Shown one piece after another: positions 26,791 to 35,235 of a stretch of DNA of 64,000 bases; the first letter of the stretch is position 1; every line of letters begins with the position of its first letter. Source of the stretch: Streptomyces lydicus (GTDB taxonomy: Bacteria; Actinomycetota; Actinomycetes; Streptomycetales; Streptomycetaceae); the NCBI RefSeq assembly GCF_001729485.1, contig NZ_CP017157.1, positions 6,262,001 to 6,326,000 on the forward strand. The letters are read 5' to 3'. Under the pieces are notes generated by a model that made no database searches, was not told where the DNA came from, and was given only the letters and a program-made list of their open reading frames with translations. The translations under genes and the position numbers were made by a program.

Positions 26791-27438
26791 ATGAACGTAC
26801 TCCTCGATTATCTGCCCGAGTTCCGGGACGGATTCCTCGGAACGCTGGCCATCACCGTGTCCAGCGCCCTGCTCGCGCTGGTGCTCGGCGTGCTCATAGC
26901 CGGTTTCCGGGTCTCCCCGATCCCGCCGCTGCGCGCCTTCGGGACGGCCTGGGTCACGGTGCTGCGCAACACGCCGCTGACGCTGCTCTTCCTGGTCGCG
27001 TTCTTCGTCGTGCCGCAGATCCTCTTCCAGGGCGCGAGCCCGTTCGTGCTCGCCACGCTCGCGCTCGGCTTCTACACCTCCTCCTTCGTCTGCGAGGCGG
27101 TGCGGTCCGGCATCAACACCGTGCCGATGGGGCAGGCGGAGGCCGCGCGCAGCCTCGGTATGACGTTCTCCCAGACGCTGCGCATGATCGTGCTGCCGCA
27201 GGCCACGCGCACCGTCCTCCCGCCGCTGAGCAGCATCTTCATCGCGCTGACGAAGAACTCCGCGATCGCCGGCGCCTTCAGCTTCGGCGAGCTGTTCAAC
27301 GTCTCCAAGCTGCTCAACGACAAGGGCTACGCGATCGCCTGGATCTTCCTGTGGATCGCGCTCGCCTACCTCGTCATCACCTTCGCCATCAGCGGTCTCT
27401 TCCGGCTGCTGGAGCGCCGGATGGGGGTCGCCCGATGA
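26791..27438 (+). CDS. gluC: glutamate ABC transporter permease GluC
   Basis: A 215-residue inner-membrane permease of the HisM/GlnP family with about five transmembrane helices (first at ~20-40, last at ~185-205). The EAA loop reads E-A-A-R-S-L-G-M-T-F-S-Q-T-L-R-M-I-V-L-P-Q-A (near 117-138) and contacts the ATPase GluA. The start is ATG 26791 with GGAG 5 nt upstream. It pairs with GluD as a heterodimeric channel. The 127-bp gap to gluD contains a palindromic repeat element. Confidence 0.93.
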   Translation: MNVLLDYLPEFRDGFLGTLAITVSSALLALVLGVLIAGFRVSPIPPLRAFGTAWVTVLRNTPLTLLFLVAFFVVPQILFQGASPFVLATLALGFYTSSFVCEAVRSGINTVPMGQAEAARSLGMTFSQTLRMIVLPQATRTVLPPLSSIFIALTKNSAIAGAFSFGELFNVSKLLNDKGYAIAWIFLWIALAYLVITFAISGLFRLLERRMGVAR

Positions 27439-27450
27439 GCGGACGCGACG

Positions 27451-27501
27451 TGGGGGTCCCGCCGGCCGAAGGCCCCCGGCCACCGCTGGGAGGCGCCCCC
27501 G
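27451..27501. repeat. short palindromic interspersed element between gluC and gluD
   Basis: A G/C-rich segment with internal complementarity (GGGGG...CCCCC arms, GCCGGCC centre) that ends TGGGAGGCGCCCCC at 27487-27500. That terminus matches, at 13 of 14 positions, the complement of the element inside the SDR gene (TGGGAGGTGCCCCC). I recall this family as scattered in Streptomyces genomes. It does not interrupt a coding frame here. Confidence 0.5.
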
Positions 27502-27565
27502 GGAGAAGGAACAGCACGATGTGGGTGCCACGCGCAGGCGGGGCGGATCGAAGCGAGGTCAGCGC

Positions 27566-28501
27566 ATGAGCAACGCCAGCGTTCTCTACGACGTACCGGG
27601 GCCGAAGGCGAAGGCGCGCAACCGCGTCTACACCGTGGTCGGGGCACTCGCGGTACTGGCGCTGATCGCCTTCGTCGTGCTGCGGCTGAGCGCCAAGGGC
27701 CAGCTGGAGCCCGAGGTGTGGAACATCTTCAACAACGCCGGTGTGCGGACCAACATCCGCGACGGCGTGCTGACGACGCTCCAGGTCTTCGCGGTCGCGG
27801 CGGTGCTGTCCCTGGTGCTGGGCGTGCTGCTGGCCGTGGCACGGCTGTCGGACCACAAGCCGGTCCGCTGGCTGGCGACCGGCTTCATCGAGCTCTTCCG
27901 TGCCGTACCGCTGCTGATCACGATCTACGCGCTGTGGGTGATCCTGCTCAGCAACCGCGAGAGCCTCGGCCTGGCCGACAGCCAGCCGCAGTTCTGGGCG
28001 CTGGTCATCGGGCTGACGGTCTACAACGGCTCGGTCCAGGCCGAGGTGCTGCGGGCCGGCATCAACTCGGTGCCGAAGGGCCAGCGCGAGGCCGCCTACG
28101 CCCTGGGCATGCGCAAGACCCAGGTCATGACGACGGTGCTGATCCCGCAGGCCGTCCGGGCGATGCTGCCGACGATCATCAGCCAGCTCGTGGTGACCCT
28201 GAAGGACACCTCCCTCGGCTACATCATCACCTTCGAGGAACTGCTCTTCACCGCCCGCCAGATGAGCACCAACATCATCGTCAACGGCAACGACACCTAC
28301 GTCCCGGTCATCATCGTCACCGGCGCCATCTACGTCGCTATGTGCCTGGCGCTGTCCGCCCTCGCCAACTGGATCGAGGCGCGCGGCCGGCGGGCCAAGA
28401 CCGGCATCGGGGTCACCGCGGCCGGCGAGCCGGTGGCGGCCACCGACGCACTGGACACCGCGGACGCGGCCCCGGGCGGCCCGCTGGCGGCGAAGGACTG
28501 A
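27566..28501 (+). CDS. gluD: glutamate ABC transporter permease GluD
   Basis: A 311-residue permease of the same family as GluC but longer at both ends. There is a ~15-residue cytoplasmic head, a first helix at ~22-42 and a periplasmic stretch. The transmembrane core follows, with the EAA loop E-A-A-Y-A-L-G-M-R-K-T-Q-V-M (near 179-192), and a ~45-residue Ala/Thr/Asp-rich cytoplasmic tail. The start is ATG 27566 with GAGGT 6 nt upstream. It is the last gene of gluABCD, followed by a strong terminator at 28591. Confidence 0.93.
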   Translation: MSNASVLYDVPGPKAKARNRVYTVVGALAVLALIAFVVLRLSAKGQLEPEVWNIFNNAGVRTNIRDGVLTTLQVFAVAAVLSLVLGVLLAVARLSDHKPVRWLATGFIELFRAVPLLITIYALWVILLSNRESLGLADSQPQFWALVIGLTVYNGSVQAEVLRAGINSVPKGQREAAYALGMRKTQVMTTVLIPQAVRAMLPTIISQLVVTLKDTSLGYIITFEELLFTARQMSTNIIVNGNDTYVPVIIVTGAIYVAMCLALSALANWIEARGRRAKTGIGVTAAGEPVAATDALDTADAAPGGPLAAKD

Positions 28502-28590
28502 GCGGACCGGAGGCCCCCGGCCGGGATCGGGGGCGGCCGGGCGGCTCCCGGCGTACGGTGGCCGCGCCGCGCGGCTGATACCGGACCGTC

Positions 28591-28622
28591 CGGAGGCGGT
28601 GGCAACGGCGCCACCGCCTCCG
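28591..28622 (+). terminator. gluABCD operon terminator
   Basis: A perfect 13-bp stem, CGGAGGCGGTGGC with its complement, and a 6-nt loop, 89 nt after the gluD stop. The next promoter begins within a few bases of it. Confidence 0.75.
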
Positions 28623-28626
28623 TCAC

Positions 28627-28655
28627 TTGACGCGAGCGGCCGCAGTGGGTTGCAT
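28627..28655 (+). promoter_or_regulatory. probable promoter of the FAD monooxygenase gene
   Basis: TTGACG, a 17-nt spacer and TTGCAT (or 18 nt and TGCATA), directly after the glu terminator. The -35 is strong and the -10 weak. It would give a leader of about 75 nt. Confidence 0.35.
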
Positions 28656-28736
28656 ACGCTGTGTGATCACGCACCGGGCTCCAACTGCCAGTTTCCGCAC
28701 GTCCCGTACGTACCAGCGGCCCCAGGGAGCGGCGCC

Positions 28737-30773
28737 GTGGACCCGGTGATCGTGGTCGGGGCCGGCCCGGTCGGCCTCTCGCTCGCCCTTGCCCTCGCCC
28801 GGCTCGGCGTCCCCTCCGTCGTCCTCGACGAGACCCCCGGCCAGGAGGAGACCCGCCCCGCCCGCACCGCCGTGCTCCGCCCGGACACCGCCGCCTTCGT
28901 CGGCCGGCTCGGCTGCGCCGACGCCCTGGAGAGCGCCGGCACCCGCTGGGCGGCCTGGCGTATCATGCGCCGCCGGCGCCTGGTCGAGCGCGTCGCCTTC
29001 GCCCCGCGCACCCCGGACGACGTGGCCGGCCCCGCCCCCGCCTCCCCGGTCCACCTCCCCCAGCACGCGCTCACCCGCGCCCTGCGCGCCGCGCTGGCCC
29101 GCGAGAAGCTCGCCGAGGTCGTCACCGGCAGCCGGCTCTCCGACCTCGAACAGGACGAGCACGGCATCAGCGCCCACACCCGCGGCCCCAACGGGACGTG
29201 GTGGCGCGGGAGTTACCTCATCGGCTGCGACGGCCCCCGGTCGACCGTCCGCAAGCTGCTGGACATCCGCTTCCCGGGCCGGACGGCGGTCGAACGGCAC
29301 GCGGTCGCCGCGCTGCGCTGCGAACTCCCCTGGCCCGGAGAGGCATTGCTGCACCGTTCGCCGCCGCGGCAGGGGGGCGGGCCGGGCAGTGAGGTCTCCG
29401 CCCGGCCGCTGGCCGACGGCGTCTGGCGGCTGGACTGGCTGCTGCCACCCGGGCGCGAACTGGTCACACCGGACGCGCTGGTGGCCCGGATCCGCGACTC
29501 CCTGGCGGGCTGGAGCGGCGAGGCCCCGGCCGAACCCGGCACGGGGCCGGGCCCGGACGGGGACGGCAACCGGCGGCACGGCCCGGGCCGGCTGGTCCCC
29601 CCGTACGAGCTCCTCGACACCGGGGTGCACACCGTCCACCACCGGCTCGCCCGCCGCTGGCGGCAGGGCCGCGCCTTCCTCGCCGGGGACGCCGCGCATC
29701 TGCTGGGCGCACTCGGCACCCAAGGGCTGGACGAGGGGCTGCGGGACGCCGAGAACCTCGCCTGGAAGCTCGGGCTGGCCTGGCACCACGGCGCCTCGGA
29801 ACTGCTGCTCGACAGCTACCAGGCCGAACGCCGGGGCGCCGTCGCGGCCCGGCTGCGCGCGGCCGACCAGGCACTGCCGCTGCTGCGGGACGGCCGTTCG
29901 GTCCGCTGGCGCACCGTGCTCCCCGGTGCCGCGCGCGGCCGCAGCACCCTGCTGACCGACGGCCACCTGGGCCGCGGACCGCTGGGCGCGCCCCCGGTGT
30001 ACGCCCGCACGCCGCTGGCGCCGCCCGCCGGACCGGCGGACGGCCCGCTCGTCGAGACGGTGCCGGGGGCACCGGTCGTGGATGTGGCGGTGACCGCGTC
30101 CGACGGCTCGGTGGTCCGGCTGCACGACCGTCTCGGGCAGGGCCTGCTGGTGATCCTGGTGGCCCCCGGCACCACCGTCTGGGACCGCCGGCACTGGCAG
30201 TCGGCGGGCCTGATGCCCCGCCTGACCAGCGCGGTCGCCGCACTGCCGATGTCGGCCGAGCTGCTGGTCACCGAGTCGTACCCGGGCGCGGCCGCGCACA
30301 CCGTCCTGCTCGTACGCCCCGACGGTCATCTGGTCACGGCGCTGGCCGGCGTCCGCCCGGAGGAGATGACGGCGTGCGCGGAGGCGGTACGGGGCGGCAC
30401 CCACGGCCGGGGAGCGGGCGCGGCCCGCCGGGCCGGCTCCGAGGGGGCTCCGGTACCACCCGCCGGCGGGCCCGCGGGACGGAGTACGTCCGGTGCCTCC
30501 GGTGCGGCGCCGGAGGCCGGTGCGCCGGAGGCATCCGAGGCGTCCGGTGGACCGGGGCGCGGCGGATCCGGCGAGGGAACGCCGGGGTCACACGGAGCGA
30601 CGGACGGGGGCGGAGCCACGGGAGCGGGCGGAGCAGCGGGCGCGATCGGGGCGGCGGAAGGACGTGACGGAGGGGCAGAGGGCGGCGGGACGGAGGGCTC
30701 GGCCGGGGCGGCGGGGGCGCCTTCCCCGGTTGACCCTGTGGGAACGTCCATGCTTCACTCCGAGAGTGACTGA
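28737..30773 (+). CDS. FAD-dependent monooxygenase (PHBH/PheA-TfdB group) with a long disordered tail
   Basis: A 678-residue flavoprotein hydroxylase. The N-terminal Rossmann motif V-V-G-A-G-P-V-G-L-S is at residues 6-15, the C-D-G-P-R-S-T-V-R motif near 165, and the second FAD motif G-R-A-F-L-A-G-D-A-A-H-L near 313. A thioredoxin-like C-terminal domain (~440-550) is typical of phenol or polyketide hydroxylases. Its substrate is unknown and no aromatic pathway genes adjoin. The last ~120 residues are Gly/Ala/Ser/Glu-rich and appear disordered. The final codons overlap the promoter and start of the Cys leader peptide. The start is GTG 28737 with GGGAG 7 nt upstream and the FAD motif right at the N-terminus. 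Confidence 0.87.
   Translation: MDPVIVVGAGPVGLSLALALARLGVPSVVLDETPGQEETRPARTAVLRPDTAAFVGRLGCADALESAGTRWAAWRIMRRRRLVERVAFAPRTPDDVAGPAPASPVHLPQHALTRALRAALAREKLAEVVTGSRLSDLEQDEHGISAHTRGPNGTWWRGSYLIGCDGPRSTVRKLLDIRFPGRTAVERHAVAALRCELPWPGEALLHRSPPRQGGGPGSEVSARPLADGVWRLDWLLPPGRELVTPDALVARIRDSLAGWSGEAPAEPGTGPGPDGDGNRRHGPGRLVPPYELLDTGVHTVHHRLARRWRQGRAFLAGDAAHLLGALGTQGLDEGLRDAENLAWKLGLAWHHGASELLLDSYQAERRGAVAARLRAADQALPLLRDGRSVRWRTVLPGAARGRSTLLTDGHLGRGPLGAPPVYARTPLAPPAGPADGPLVETVPGAPVVDVAVTASDGSVVRLHDRLGQGLLVILVAPGTTVWDRRHWQSAGLMPRLTSAVAALPMSAELLVTESYPGAAAHTVLLVRPDGHLVTALAGVRPEEMTACAEAVRGGTHGRGAGAARRAGSEGAPVPPAGGPAGRSTSGASGAAPEAGAPEASEASGGPGRGGSGEGTPGSHGATDGGGATGAGGAAGAIGAAEGRDGGAEGGGTEGSAGAAGAPSPVDPVGTSMLHSESD
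30730..30759 (+). promoter_or_regulatory. promoter for the leaderless Cys leader peptide
   Basis: TTGACC, an 18-nt spacer and TTCACT, ending 6 nt before the GTG at 30766. Transcription would therefore start at or next to the first codon, giving a leaderless mRNA. It lies within the 3' end of the monooxygenase gene. Confidence 0.55.
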
Positions 30774-30852
30774 TCACAGCTCGCGGTTCTGGCGGAGGGT
30801 CCATCTGGACCTGGTCCGCTATGCGGGCTGCATGTGTCGTCCGTTCTGTTGA
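30766..30852 (+). CDS. cysteine-rich leader peptide upstream of cysteine dioxygenase
   Basis: A 28-residue ORF starting at GTG 30766 and ending W-R-R-V-H-L-D-L-V-R-Y-A-G-C-M-C-R-P-F-C. It has three Cys codons in the last seven. The V-H-L-D-L-x-R-x-A and C-R-P pattern matches the small putative leader peptides I know upstream of actinobacterial sulfur genes. Mycobacterial examples act as leaderless, cysteine-responsive attenuators. No ribosome site precedes it, but a -35/-10 pair places the transcript start at the GTG. It overlaps the monooxygenase stop by 8 nt in another frame. A hairpin lies between it and the cysteine dioxygenase gene. Ribosome stalling at Cys codons when cysteine is scarce would be the expected switch; that mechanism is inferred. 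Confidence 0.72.
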   Translation: MTDHSSRFWRRVHLDLVRYAGCMCRPFC

Positions 30853-30869
30853 TCCGCATCTTCTTCCCC

Positions 30870-30902
30870 GCGCGGCCGCCTGCCCCTGTCCGGCAGCCGC
30901 GC
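30870..30902 (+). promoter_or_regulatory. attenuator-like hairpin between Cys leader and cysteine dioxygenase
   Basis: Nested stems GCGCGG/CCGCGC (6 bp) and CTGCC/GGCAG (5 bp) with a 7-nt loop and a small bulge. It begins 17 nt after the leader stop and ends 28 nt before the cysteine dioxygenase start. A ribosome stalled on the leader's Cys codons could alter its formation. No U tract follows. Confidence 0.5.
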
Positions 30903-30930
30903 CTCTTCGCGATCACTCAGGACGGTTTTC

Positions 30931-31473
30931 GTGCCAGACGTACGTACCTCCGCGCGCCCGCAGGCCACCGGCACTGACGGCGGGCCCAGCGCCTCCGATC
31001 TCCTCGACTTCGCCCGCCGCACCGCCGCGGACGCGGCGCTCATCGCCTCCCTCCCGCTCGACCCCGAAGGCCGCACCTGGATCCGGCTGAACGGCCCGGG
31101 CGGCAGCGAGGCATGGCTGATCGGCTGGCCGCCCGGCACCGGCACCGGCTGGCACGACCACGGGGGCTCGCGTGGTGCCTTCGCGGCGGCCAGCGGCGAG
31201 CTGACGGAACAGTCGCTCGCCGTCCAACTGCCCACCGAGGGCTGGAAAACGCTGGAACTCGCCGACGACGTGGACCGGCGGCGCAAGCTCAGCGACGGTC
31301 ACGGCCGGGCGTTCGGCCCGCACCACGTCCATGAGGTGCTGAACACCTCCCAGGACACCCATGCGGTCTCGGTGCATGCCTACTATCCGCCCCTTCCGCT
31401 CATGCGCCGCTACAGCCGCACCGGCCCACTGCTGCGTCTCGAAGAGGTCGAGCGTCCGGAGGAGTGGACGTGA
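30931..31473 (+). CDS. cysteine dioxygenase (cupin)
   Basis: A 180-residue type-I cysteine dioxygenase-like cupin that oxidises cysteine to cysteine sulfinate. Fe(II) ligands appear as H75 and H77 in G-W-H-D-H-G-G-S and a third His in F-G-P-H-H-V-H-E-V-L-N (131-134). The latter also supplies the second cupin motif. Cytosolic; no signal. The start is GTG 30931 with AGGACGG upstream. It overlaps the rhodanese gene by 4 nt. The upstream Cys-rich leader peptide and hairpin suggest expression tied to cysteine supply, which fits a catabolic enzyme that removes excess cysteine. Confidence 0.87.
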   Translation: MPDVRTSARPQATGTDGGPSASDLLDFARRTAADAALIASLPLDPEGRTWIRLNGPGGSEAWLIGWPPGTGTGWHDHGGSRGAFAAASGELTEQSLAVQLPTEGWKTLELADDVDRRRKLSDGHGRAFGPHHVHEVLNTSQDTHAVSVHAYYPPLPLMRRYSRTGPLLRLEEVERPEEWT

Positions 31474-31850
31474 GCGCCGTCGACGAACTGCTCGCCCGGG
31501 CCCGGCAGGAGCTGGGACCCCGGGTGAACCCCCAGGAGGCCGCCGCCGTACAGGAGGCCGGCGGTCTGCTGGTCGACATCCGGTACGCGCAGCTGCGCGA
31601 GCGCGACGGCACCATCCCCGGCGCCCTGATCGTGGAACGCAACGAACTCGAATGGCGCCTCGACCCCACGGGCGAACACCGCGCCCCCGAGGCGACCCAT
31701 CACGATCTGCCGGTGGTCGTCGTCTGCAACGAGGGCTACGCCTCCACCCTCGCCGCCCTCTCCCTCCGCCAACTGGGCCTCCACCGGGCAACCGACCTCA
31801 CCGGCGGCTTCCAGGCATGGCGAGCAGCGGGGCTCCCCGTACGCACCTGA
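31470..31850 (+). CDS. rhodanese-domain sulfurtransferase
   Basis: A 126-residue single-domain rhodanese. L-L-V-D-I-R near 33-38 and the active-site loop C-N-E-G-Y-A-S with catalytic C86 are seen, then the C-terminal G-G-F-Q-A-W-R-A-A-G-L-P motif. It should carry sulfane sulfur as a persulfide. The start is GTG 31470, overlapping the cysteine dioxygenase stop as GTGA, with GGAGG 7 nt upstream; GTG 31464 is in frame but lacks a site. The coupling indicates joint function in cysteine-sulfur disposal. Confidence 0.85.
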   Translation: MSAVDELLARARQELGPRVNPQEAAAVQEAGGLLVDIRYAQLRERDGTIPGALIVERNELEWRLDPTGEHRAPEATHHDLPVVVVCNEGYASTLAALSLRQLGLHRATDLTGGFQAWRAAGLPVRT

Positions 31851-31880
31851 CCTCCGCCGGTTGGGCGCACCGACGGCCGG

Positions 31881-32546
31881 TCAGTCGTCCGGCAGAGGGT
31901 GGTCCAGCAGCTCCGGGTCCTCGCCTTCCTCCGCCAGTGCCTGTTTGACGACCCGGAGGGCCAGGCCCTCCGGATAGCCCTTGCGGGCCAGCATCCCGGC
32001 CAGGCGGCGGAGGCGTTTTTCGCGGTCCAGCCCTCTCGTGGCGCGCAGCTTGCGGTCGACCAACTCGCGGGCGGTGGACTCCTCCTGCTCGGAATCGAGG
32101 CGGCTGACCGCCACGTCGATCAGGGCGGAGTCCACCCCCTTGGTGCGCAGTTCCCGCGCCAGGGCCCGCCGGGCGAGGCCGCGCCCGTGGTGGCGGGACT
32201 CCACCCAGGCGTCGGCGAAGGCCGCGTCGTCGATCAGTCCGACGTCCTCGAAGCGGGACAGCACGTCCTGTGCGGCCTCGTCGGGAATGCCCCGCAGGCG
32301 CAGGGCGTCCTCGAGTTGCTTGCGCGTACGCGGATTCCCGGTGAGCAGGCGCAGGCAGATGGCCCGCGCCTGCTCCTCGGGCGTACGCGGTGATCCCGAC
32401 TCGGCCCTCGACGAGGAGGGACCACCGCTGTCCTCCGGGCCGCCCCGGCGGCCCGCACGGCCCCCGCGGCCCCTACGGGTCTCGGCGTCACCGGCAGCGC
32501 GACCGAGCTCGCCCTCGCTGTCCGGCCATTCCGTTCGCCGTGTCAT
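31881..32546 (-). CDS. recX: recombination regulator RecX
   Basis: A 221-residue RecX, which binds and inhibits RecA filaments. The first ~55 residues are a low-complexity Arg/Gly/Glu head. The RecX core of three-helix repeats follows: R-A-I-C-L-R-L-L-T near 61, R-T-R-K-Q-L, V-G-L-I-D-D-A-A-F-A-x-A-W-V-E-S-R (near 102-118) and G-Y-P-E-G-L-A near 193. Start is ATG 32546, only 6 nt after the recA stop, so the two are one operon. It is convergent with the rhodanese gene. Confidence 0.94.
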   Translation of the reverse strand: MTRRTEWPDSEGELGRAAGDAETRRGRGGRAGRRGGPEDSGGPSSSRAESGSPRTPEEQARAICLRLLTGNPRTRKQLEDALRLRGIPDEAAQDVLSRFEDVGLIDDAAFADAWVESRHHGRGLARRALARELRTKGVDSALIDVAVSRLDSEQEESTARELVDRKLRATRGLDREKRLRRLAGMLARKGYPEGLALRVVKQALAEEGEDPELLDHPLPDD

Positions 32547-32552
32547 GGCGGG

Positions 32553-33680
32553 CTAGCTCTTGGCCGCGGCGGCCTTGGAAGCCTTGGCGCCCTTGGCCGC
32601 CGGTGCCGGAGCCGCGGCCGCGGTGGCCGGGTCGGCTGCGGCGCCCGCGGCGTCTGCGCCGGGCTCCGCGTCGGCGTCCTGCGGCTTCACGCCGATGCCG
32701 AGCTTCTCCTTGATCTTCTTCTCGATCTCGTTGGCGAGATCCGGGTTGTCCTTGAGGAAGTTGCGGGCGTTCTCCTTGCCCTGGCCCAGCTGGTCGCCCT
32801 CGTACGTGTACCAAGCGCCGGACTTGCGGATGAAGCCGTGCTCCACGCCCATGTCGATCAGGCCGCCCTCACGGCTGATGCCCTGGCCGTAGAGGATGTC
32901 GAACTCGGCCTGCTTGAACGGCGGGGAGACCTTGTTCTTGACGACCTTCACACGGGTGCGGTTACCGACCGCGTCCGTGCCGTCCTTGAGGGTTTCGATG
33001 CGGCGGATGTCGAGACGCACCGAGGCGTAGAACTTCAGCGCGCGGCCACCGGTCGTGGTCTCCGGCGAGCCGAACATCACGCCGATCTTCTCGCGGAGCT
33101 GGTTGATGAAGATCGCGGTGGTCTTGGACTGGTTGAGCGCGCTGGTGATCTTACGGAGCGCCTGGCTCATCAGTCGGGCCTGGAGGCCGACGTGCGAGTC
33201 GCCCATCTCACCCTCGATCTCGGCCCGCGGCACCAGCGCGGCGACGGAGTCGATCACGATGAGGTCGAGTGCACCGGAGCGGACCAGCATGTCCACGATT
33301 TCCAGCGCCTGCTCGCCGTTGTCCGGCTGGGACAGGATCAGGGAGTCGGTGTCCACACCGAGCTTCTTGGCGTACTCCGGGTCGAGGGCGTGCTCCGCGT
33401 CGATGAACGCGACCGAGCCGCCGGCCTTCTGCGCGTTCGCGACGGCGTGCAGGGTCAGGGTCGTCTTACCGGAGGATTCCGGGCCGTAGACCTCGATGAC
33501 GCGGCCGCGGGGGAGGCCGCCGACGCCGAGGGCCACGTCGAGCGCGGTGGATCCGGTGGGGATGACCTCGATGGGCTCCTTCGACCTCTCCCCCATGCGC
33601 ATCACGGCGCCCTTGCCGAATTGCCGTTCAATCTGTGCGAGCGCGGCGTCCAGCGCCTTCTCGCGGTCAGTGCCTGCCAT
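32553..33680 (-). CDS. recA: recombinase RecA
   Basis: A 375-residue RecA that forms ATP-dependent filaments on single-stranded DNA for recombination and SOS induction. Walker A is GPESSGKTT (66-74), with Walker [11 protein letters not shown] and the L2 region [13 protein letters not shown] downstream. The C-terminal ~45 residues form an Ala/Asp/Lys-rich tail longer than that of E. coli RecA. The start is ATG 33680 with GGTGGAA upstream. A LexA-type box lies ~140 bp upstream and recX follows in the operon. Confidence 0.98.
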
Positions 33681-33817
33681 GGGTTCCACCCGATTTGCTT
33701 GAGTCGATCGCTTCACGTCCATGACGCTAACGCCTGCCACTGACAATGCGCCCGGACCCGGCTCCGGCCTGTGGATAACTTCGAGAAAACCCCGAGAACA
33801 CAGGCCGGATCTCCCAT

Positions 33818-33833
33818 GAGAATGGATGTTCGA
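33818..33833 (-). promoter_or_regulatory. LexA (SOS) box upstream of recA
   Basis: TCGAACATCCATTCTC on the recA strand, close to the actinobacterial SOS consensus CGAAC-N4-GTTCG (left half exact, right half ATTCT). It is 138 bp before the recA start. The binding is inferred from the consensus. Confidence 0.6.
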
Positions 33834-33933
33834 TTTTGCTGTCAAGCGACCCGCCCGCCCGTGTCCGGCGGCGGCGCGGCGCGGGCGAGCGGGCTCCGGA
33901 GCACTTCACCGGACCGACCCGCCGGCCGAGGAT

Positions 33934-35235
33934 TCAGCGGTCGCCCTCGCGGCCCTCGCCACCGCCGTCCGCGCCCGCGGCGACGTCCGCGCTCCCGGCG
34001 GCGTCCGGCGTGCGGTCCTGCAGCGGGGCGGCCGGCGGTTCGGTGCGCAGGGCCCGGCGGGCGCGGTTCAGGAGACCGGCGACGCGCCGGCGGCCCCGGC
34101 CGTTGACCCGCAGGTCGCCGGGGACCTCGTAGCGCTTGACGTACGCGCCGAGGAACGCCTGCAGCGTCGCCGTGGCCGGGATGGCGATGAGTGCGCCCAC
34201 CGCCCCCATCAGGGCCGTGCCCGCGACGACCGACCCGAAGGCGACGGCGGGGTGGATGTCCACCGTCTTGGCGGTGATCCGCGGCTGCAGCAGGTAGTTC
34301 TCGAACTGCTGGTAGATCACGACGAAGGCGAAGACCCACAGCGCGTGCCACGGGTCGACGGTGAACGCGATCAGGATGGGCAGGGCGCCCGCCAGATAGG
34401 TGCCGATGGTCGGGATGAACTGGGAGACCAGGCCGACCCACATGCCCAGCGCGGGCGCGTACGGGACACCCATCAGCTCCAGCAGGATGTAGTGGGCGAG
34501 GCCGGAGATCAGCGCCATCAGACCGCGGGAGTAGAGGTAGCCGCCCGTTTTGGCGACCGCGATCTCCCAGGCGCGCAGCACCTCGGCCTGGCGGTGCGGC
34601 GGCAGGACGGAGCACAGCGCGCGCCGCAGCCGGGGGCCGTCGGCGGCGAAGTAGAACGAGAACAGCGCCACGGTCAGAAGGTTGAACAGGCTGCCCAGCA
34701 CCGTCGCGGAGACGGCCAGCACGTTGTTGGCGCTGTCCTGCACATACTTCTGCAGCCAGTCGGAGCGGAGCAGGTTGTTCTGCACCTCCACCCGGGAGAG
34801 GTGGGTGTGCAGCGTGCTGTTGATCCAGCTGATGACGGAGTCGAGATACTGCGGGAACTCCTCGACCATCGTGGCGATCTGCCCGGCGAGCATGGAGCCC
34901 AGCAGGGCGAAGAAGCCCGCCGCGGCGACGAGGATGCCCAGGAAGACCAGGCCCGTGGCCAGCCCGCGCCGCATGCCGCGGGCCGCCATCCAGTCGACGG
35001 CCGGCTCGACGGCCAGCGCCAGGAAGAAGGCGATCAGGACGTTCAGCAGCAGGGTGATCAGCTGGTGGAATCCCCAGATGGCGAGCTGGTAGCAGCCCAC
35101 CAGGGAGAGCGCGAGCACCATGGCGCGCGGCAGCCAGCGCGGCATCCGCTCGTCGGACCGGCGCTCCGGCCGGTCCGCGAGCCGCTCATCGGGCCGCGGG
35201 ACGTCGTTGCTGGTGATCTCATCAGAAACGGGCAC
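33934..35235 (-). CDS. AI-2E family (PerM/YdiK-like) membrane transporter
   Basis: A 433-residue multi-spanning membrane protein of the AI-2E exporter superfamily. After a 30-residue charged head there are two helices (~36-75), a third (~92-112), a large external loop (~113-185) and a C-terminal group of about five helices (~190-365). The latter contains the family's P-T-I-G-T-Y-L-A-G-A-L-P and N-Y-L-L-Q-P-R-I. A ~65-residue Arg/Ala/Asp-rich cytoplasmic tail ends it. The start is GTG 35235. The substrate is unknown; the AI-2 name is historical. It is upstream of recA on the same strand but 250 bp away, with the recA SOS box between, so it is a separate unit. Confidence 0.87.
   Translation of the reverse strand: MPVSDEITSNDVPRPDERLADRPERRSDERMPRWLPRAMVLALSLVGCYQLAIWGFHQLITLLLNVLIAFFLALAVEPAVDWMAARGMRRGLATGLVFLGILVAAAGFFALLGSMLAGQIATMVEEFPQYLDSVISWINSTLHTHLSRVEVQNNLLRSDWLQKYVQDSANNVLAVSATVLGSLFNLLTVALFSFYFAADGPRLRRALCSVLPPHRQAEVLRAWEIAVAKTGGYLYSRGLMALISGLAHYILLELMGVPYAPALGMWVGLVSQFIPTIGTYLAGALPILIAFTVDPWHALWVFAFVVIYQQFENYLLQPRITAKTVDIHPAVAFGSVVAGTALMGAVGALIAIPATATLQAFLGAYVKRYEVPGDLRVNGRGRRRVAGLLNRARRALRTEPPAAPLQDRTPDAAGSADVAAGADGGGEGREGDR

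Follow-up and report, generated by a model that had tools for sequence, protein, structure and literature searches.

Leaderless open reading frames (ORFs) with polycysteine tracts were reportedly described in mycobacteria by Canestrari et al. in 2020. Here we analyze a 28-codon ORF, rich in Cys codons at its end, that precedes a cysteine dioxygenase (CDO) gene in a 64,000-nucleotide stretch of the Streptomyces lydicus chromosome (NZ_CP017157.1, positions 6,262,001 to 6,326,000; hereafter the window, from whose first base coordinates are counted). Statements on papers cited by PMC number refer to the accessible portions of their text. Cys leaders are cited as regulating sulfur genes in Mycobacterium smegmatis (PMC9094748, PMC13236596) and were seen in mycobacterial ribosome profiling (PMC4633059), and translation attenuation is named by a paper that cites the mycobacterial polycysteine ORFs (PMC9094748). 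Actinobacterial Cys leaders before cys operons were predicted as early as 2005 (Seliverstov et al. 2005, PMC1262725). The leader in the window is real and conserved, its codon signature is common to its family, and a latch on the translation of CDO is plausible.

Judged by its profile score, the leader is a further member of the already known family NF042934 (cis_reg_atten, "putative leader peptide"), with 33.5 bits against a curated cut-off of 27 (hmmscan); the likeness to actinobacterial Cys leader peptides seen in a preliminary description of this locus, made from the DNA letters, is thereby supported. The cut-off of NF042933 (Ms5788A family) is not reached (16.8 bits against 45, hmmscan), and a Pfam search of the leader peptide gave no match. 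With the NF042934 leaders it has in common the DLxR core, the Cys position and the UGU codon, but it has extra Cys residues at -2 and +4 and a W-R-R-V stretch before the core, its tail appears to double as an anti-Shine-Dalgarno (anti-SD), and the gene behind it is CDO. With NF042933 and the mycobacterial polycysteine leaderless ORFs it shares its small size, Cys codons close to the stop and a place upstream of sulfur genes; it differs from them in having no run of adjacent Cys codons and another downstream gene. The predicted leaders of Mycobacterium, P. acnes and B. longum are likewise short ORFs with Cys codons near the stop and no terminator, but they precede cys operons and cbs, and the accessible text does not contain "cysteine dioxygenase" (PMC1262725). 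In Rhodobacterales, the Cys codons of uORFC-8-2 before cysS are proposed to sense tRNA-Cys charging, as here, though with two tandem Cys codons, UGC dominant, and an intrinsic terminator (PMC8632094). The "metL" leader before metNIQ of S. lividans is leaderless and has a Cys-rich end (...CMCRRMCAF) like that of the window leader, but it is described as a methionine attenuator and has no NF042934 match (PMC8079986). The three Cys residues of that end (PMC8079986, Table 4) suggest a cysteine rather than a methionine attenuator, and metNI rise with cys genes (PMC4991794). No CDO leader is among the eight S. lividans attenuators in the accessible text of PMC8079986. In our literature search no CDO leader or UGU rule was recognized, most papers having been judged without full text and the key mycobacterial paper lying outside the comparison.

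Conservation of the leader was examined in two sets of loci. Among 199 genomes of the genus, 173 have CDO, that of the window being one of them; from 60 of the remaining 172 (the top 40 matches and 20 that ranked lower) we retrieved the stretch upstream of CDO. The leader lies upstream of CDO in 58 of these 60 loci; the stretches of L022 and L040 end at contig ends. The second set, the best 80 of 522 named relatives, overlaps the first in some genomes, and 78 of its loci carry the leader. Here one stretch (L252) is too short, and in the other (L226, a named Streptomyces) CDO has no leader and seems to be placed after another gene. The peptide was thus found where the preliminary description had proposed to look for it, before CDO in other genomes. 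A 30-base leader pattern with up to three mismatches matches 65 of 73 same-genus genomes and none of 47 others, while the backward control pattern matches 4 of 120 genomes. The eight pattern-negative genomes are exactly those without CDO at E 1e-20, such that leader and CDO agree in 73 of 73. A chance origin of the leader before CDO is excluded. Codon 11 is AGG in 56 of 58 leaders and codon 13 is CAT in 49, compared with 4% (AGG among Arg codons) and 9% (CAT) in window coding frames. Before distant CDO genes (L109-L120), no DLxR-core leader was seen by eye on the stored strand, the only strand read.

The preliminary description had placed its emphasis on three Cys codons in the last seven of the ORF. 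These are indeed present, at codons 22, 24 and 28 of the peptide MTDHSSRFWRRVHLDLVRYAGCMCRPFC, but the conserved feature is one UGU codon with DLxR upstream of it, and 9 of the 78 named leaders end in a codon other than Cys. At the last NF042934 model position we read the codon in 68 loci, ten of them the best in the window's own genome and 58 among the best matches of a genus and a class sample. These loci represent 63 distinct leaders, 62 with UGU and one with AGU (Ser), whereas the other Cys codons of the same leaders, from -11 to the stop, are 83 TGC versus 19 TGT (Fisher P = 1.4e-28, a value made too small by relatedness). The NF042934 profile is built on protein and does not select the codon, and by our count the class-sample loci alone cover 15 families. 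In window coding frames TGT makes up 17 of 94 Cys codons (18%); codon 24 is TGT in 58 of 58 and 78 of 78 CDO leaders (overlapping sets). No flanking base is invariant from -12 to +14 around the conserved UGU, which is the only Cys codon in several leaders, e.g., L065 and L069. The AGU-bearing leader (L073, own genome, 3539367-3539417) precedes a GST-C protein; its AGU is one base off UGU, and the leader has perhaps decayed.

The DLxR motif is kept with different synonymous codons. Among 41 distinct leaders, D is GAC in 33 and GAT in 8, and L and R are each written with four codons; these leaders were chosen by the DLxR pattern on the stored strand only, by which the motif is invariant by construction and its synonymous variation is not. 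When UGU occupies the A site, residues -9, -8 and -6 (D, L and R) would lie in the upper exit tunnel. We tentatively propose, as a possible though rather doubtful extension, that the DLxR nascent chain at -9 to -6 pauses the ribosome at a wobble-read UGU, that the family is one shared tRNA-Cys sensor before many sulfur operons and not a polycysteine counter, and that a Shine-Dalgarno (SD) latch in Streptomyces puts CDO in the cysteine-shortage regulon.

The family is widespread, with a match in 68 of the 98 class-sample genomes and in all 13 of the genus sample. The genome of the window has nine NF042934 matches over the cut-off and one at E 0.004; twelve weaker matches were taken as chance. 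By Pfam, nine of the ten best leaders are followed by genes that include a luciferase-like monooxygenase, an NMT1-type binding protein, sulfite reductase, rhodanese, flavin reductase and the GST-C protein; a MoaD/ThiS-like gene (by eye) with a PALP gene, and CDO, also follow such leaders, and a Na:dicarboxylate symporter follows the weaker one at E 0.004. From their domains, these genes would fit sulfur acquisition. A further leader (L070, 5199776-5199829) has two Cys codons and UGU at the conserved place, and its downstream gene has no Pfam identity. The ten best matches all lie on one strand (150 of 289 candidates scored), which may be chance or incomplete.

How the leader could act on CDO is suggested by its tail. 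The tail reads CCGTTCTG in the window and CCGTCCTG in most relatives, and it complements CAGGACGG at the CDO start. Between the segment from UGU to the stop and the SD region, 45 of 58 sequences can form a contiguous duplex of at least 8 bp (G-U allowed), a few of them with a shifted register; codons 9-15 give 4 or 5 bp. The same duplex length is reached in 62 of the 74 named leaders with an SD element within 160 bases; the other 4 of the 78 have no SD match within that distance, and three of these show AGGACGG further on. In one locus of the genus set (L010) the leader is present, but a search over 160 bases gave no SD of the CAGGACGG type; this locus was left out of the 58-sequence set. The window RNA was computed to fold at -78.1 kcal/mol (z -2.44, with 4 of 200 shuffles equally good). 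The hairpin that the preliminary description had placed before CDO recurs in this fold, as part of the predicted structure closing the SD and not as a terminator. A transcription attenuator with an intrinsic terminator was rejected: 30500-31000 contains no GC-rich hairpin with a U run and 0 terminator-like sites.

The energy needed to open the CDO SD was computed after blocking the bases that a ribosome would cover, with a footprint of 15 bases before the P site and 12 after the first A-site base. Over the 58 sequences the mean cost is 10.5 kcal/mol for free RNA, 7.5 with the ribosome at Cys22, 4.9 at UGU24, 4.4 at the last codon and 4.5 at the stop; the corresponding values for the window are 9.7, 7.3, 1.4, 1.7 and 2.4 kcal/mol. 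The drop from free RNA to UGU24 is at least 2 kcal/mol in 49 of 58 sequences. In a scan along the codons the mean cost stays at 8.5-10.7 over codons 12-21 and falls over 22-24, and a block behind the stop gives 7.6; in the window alone it dips also at codons 16 (5.1) and 19 (5.7). A ribosome waiting at UGU24 is therefore predicted by these folds to open the CDO start.

The reading we favor, at somewhat better than even chances, is a Cys-leader attenuator of the actinobacterial type, mediated by the ribosome: a stall at UGU24 would free the CDO SD, and expression would be on at cysteine shortage. The transcript would begin at or next to the GTG, and translation would start with its very first codon. 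As long as the RNA is free, the closing codons of the leader would pair with the CDO SD and keep the start closed. When charged tRNA-Cys is scarce, the ribosome would halt with UGU24 in the A site, perhaps with help from the nascent DLxR residues inside the upper tunnel, and would then cover the anti-SD and allow translation of CDO-rhodanese; when cysteine is plentiful, it would pass and leave, and the CDO start would close again. CDO-rhodanese would in this way join a low-cysteine (or thiol-oxidation) regulon with sulfur-acquisition genes. We infer the direction from the geometry of UGU24, from the genes behind the sister leaders and from published co-induction: after 2 h of peroxide in S. 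coelicolor, SCO5772 rises 8.0-fold with ssuABC, cysNDCH, cysI, cysA, cysM and metNI (PMC4991794, Table 1). SCO5772 is called hypothetical in that paper and a putative cysteine dioxygenase in PMC3087709; the text of PMC4340878 has no mention of SCO5771-5773 or CDO.

Several observations weigh against this attenuator. Nine of the 58 sequences show a drop from free RNA to UGU24 of less than 2 kcal/mol, and for five of the nine (L028, L029, L036, L041, L064) opening the SD costs more with the ribosome at UGU24 than in free RNA. In the covariation alignment (47 of the 58 sequences, 11 near-identical ones by eye being left out), compensatory changes in the hairpin and the anti-SD:SD helix were found in 0 of 23 pairs, the 47 sequences varying too little, and the pairs form no better than with shuffled partners. 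Slid partners pair in 31-47% compared with 93.4% observed, a difference that sequence conservation alone would give; the hairpin inside the ORF is paired in 99.1% of cells, also with no compensatory change. On average 29% of synonymous tail recodings pair equally well, and 1 of 58 sequences is individually unusual; the mean tail duplex of 7.7 observed versus 6.0 recoded speaks weakly for the anti-SD. L042 and L060 combine an SD of CAGGAACGG with the tail CCCTTCCTG, a possible adjustment, against which L045 and L053 pair the identical tail with CAGGACGG. As to the published data, the rise of SCO5772 is at the RNA level and is credited to HbpS-SenS-SenR, and the list contains unrelated genes too (PMC4991794); in S. 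venezuelae the SCO5772 homologue is GlnR-dependent and induced by nitrogen starvation (PMC3087709). Peroxide differs from cysteine limitation, and the link to SCO5772 comes from its naming in PMC3087709 and the co-listing; the rise is support and not proof. Finally, a cysteine-destroying enzyme switched on at cysteine scarcity is odd unless its role differs.

It was this catabolic setting that led the preliminary description to suggest an opposite logic. In such a switch, ribosomes at the leader end would keep the anti-SD covered and CDO on when cysteine is plentiful, while a starvation stall at Cys22 would leave the anti-SD free. For a gene of catabolism this would make sense. The ribosome meets Cys22 before the other Cys codons, it opens the SD also when standing at the stop, and the SD is on average more closed with the ribosome at Cys22 than at UGU24 (7.5 versus 4.9 kcal/mol), which is the best case for the opposite logic. 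But the Cys22 cost is already 3 kcal/mol under that of free RNA on average, and UGU24 is the fixed codon, whereas two codons before it 22 of the 41 sister leaders have Ala and 17 have Cys, and Cys22 is TGC in 62 of 78 named CDO leaders. The geometry of UGU24, the sister-leader genes and the rise of SCO5772 under peroxide with cys, ssu and met assimilation genes (PMC4991794) likewise disfavor it, and we consider it unlikely. Cys22 exceeds UGU24 in cost by at least 2 kcal/mol in only 28 of 58 sequences; since a clear separation of the two codons is limited to about half of the set, we place expression at shortage lower, and the opposite logic higher, than we otherwise would. Were the ribosome to stall at Cys22, the sign of the response would be reversed, so that expression at shortage is no more than the likelier direction.

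Attenuation by Rho, in which leader translation would determine whether Rho ends transcription within the C-rich gap, the SD hairpin taking part or not, is about as improbable as the opposite logic. The lack of an intrinsic terminator would agree with it, as would the gap, which starts pyrimidine-rich in many relatives (by eye), the published changes at the RNA level (PMC4991794) and the earlier suggestion of Rho for cys leaders (Seliverstov et al. 2005, PMC1262725). It offers no reason for the conservation of CAGGACGG or for the complementary stretch within the leader, and it is compatible with the UGU24-controlled latch because an untranslated CDO gene would itself invite Rho. The leader might instead be a mere translated upstream ORF kept for promoter and RNA fold, with no sensing by peptide or UGU and with SenR and GlnR setting the CDO level. 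Nucleotide conservation inside the ORF does include rare codons that would serve the hairpin, and these regulators are reported for the gene (PMC4991794, PMC3087709); but the DLxR residues persist while their synonymous codons vary, and UGU persists next to varying neighbors, before different genes and in different families, which makes this explanation highly improbable.

The source of the window is an 8.2 Mb chromosome of Streptomyces type, and among named matches that of S. lydicus ranks first for its CDO protein (96%). The leader ORF, whose start and stop lie where the preliminary description had them, is situated between a FAD-binding monooxygenase gene (28599-30773) and CDO, and its first eight bases are also the last eight of the monooxygenase gene. 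The C-terminal end of the monooxygenase (window 30400-30770) is a long Gly/Ala-rich low-complexity tail that overlaps the leader promoter and start. By Pfam, the identities of CDO and rhodanese are secure (Table 1), as had been claimed. The reading frame of the leader is open for 160 codons, without an upstream stop to fix the start, and the start codon therefore rests on conservation and promoter spacing. Of the -35/-10 pair previously assigned to the ORF, the -35 box is well placed, and TTGA[CT] is found 36 or 37 bases upstream of the leader start in 66 of 78 named leader-bearing loci; the -10 is weak, with variants in relatives (TGTACT, TCTACT, TTCACT) at about the same position by eye, and a generic sigma-70 scan called no promoter at the leader, TTCACT included. 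This arrangement suggests a leaderless transcript starting at or beside the GTG. Rfam gave two matches over 27000-34000, both under the gathering score and neither on the leader.

Table 1. Features of the leader and the CDO locus in the window
Feature	Coordinates	Strand	Evidence or remark
-35-like box TTGACC	30730..30735	+	36 bases upstream of GTG
Weak -10-like hexamer TTCACT	30754..30759	+	6 bases upstream of GTG, at right distance from -35
Leader peptide ORF, GTG start, 28 codons (30766-30849) and TGA stop (30850-30852)	30766..30852	+	Conservation; NF042934, 33.5 bits
Predicted hairpin inside ORF: TGGCGGA (30790-30796)/TCCGCTA (30815-30821), GGTCC (30798-30802)/GGACC (30807-30811)	30790..30821	+	Minimum-energy fold
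DLxR motif codons, 9 to 6 codons before UGU24	30808..30819	+	Codon comparison
Cys24 UGU codon, homologous to fixed Cys of sister leaders; proposed stall codon	30835..30837	+	Codon comparison
Putative anti-SD CCGTTCTG, leader codons 26-28	30841..30848	+	8-bp duplex (G-U allowed) with 30918-30925
Predicted GC-rich hairpin between leader and CDO, sequence varies in relatives	30870..30902	+	Minimum-energy fold; alignment
SD region CAGGACGG of CDO, closed in predicted free-RNA fold	30918..30925	+	Fold; duplex computation
Cysteine dioxygenase gene (CDO_I)	30931..31473	+	PF05995, E 8.5e-43; four PDB sequences named cysteine dioxygenase, best E 3.8e-11
Rhodanese-domain gene, overlaps CDO end	31464..31850	+	PF00581, E 3.2e-14

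If the UGU24-controlled latch is true, a supposedly cysteine-degrading enzyme of Streptomyces would be tied to the sulfur-shortage regulon, and the reading of the enzyme would change: the thiol dioxygenase may serve sulfur mobilization or redox balance, and not the disposal of excess cysteine. For the widespread leader family, the near-invariant UGU with DLxR upstream offers a codon-level hypothesis of how cysteine may be sensed.

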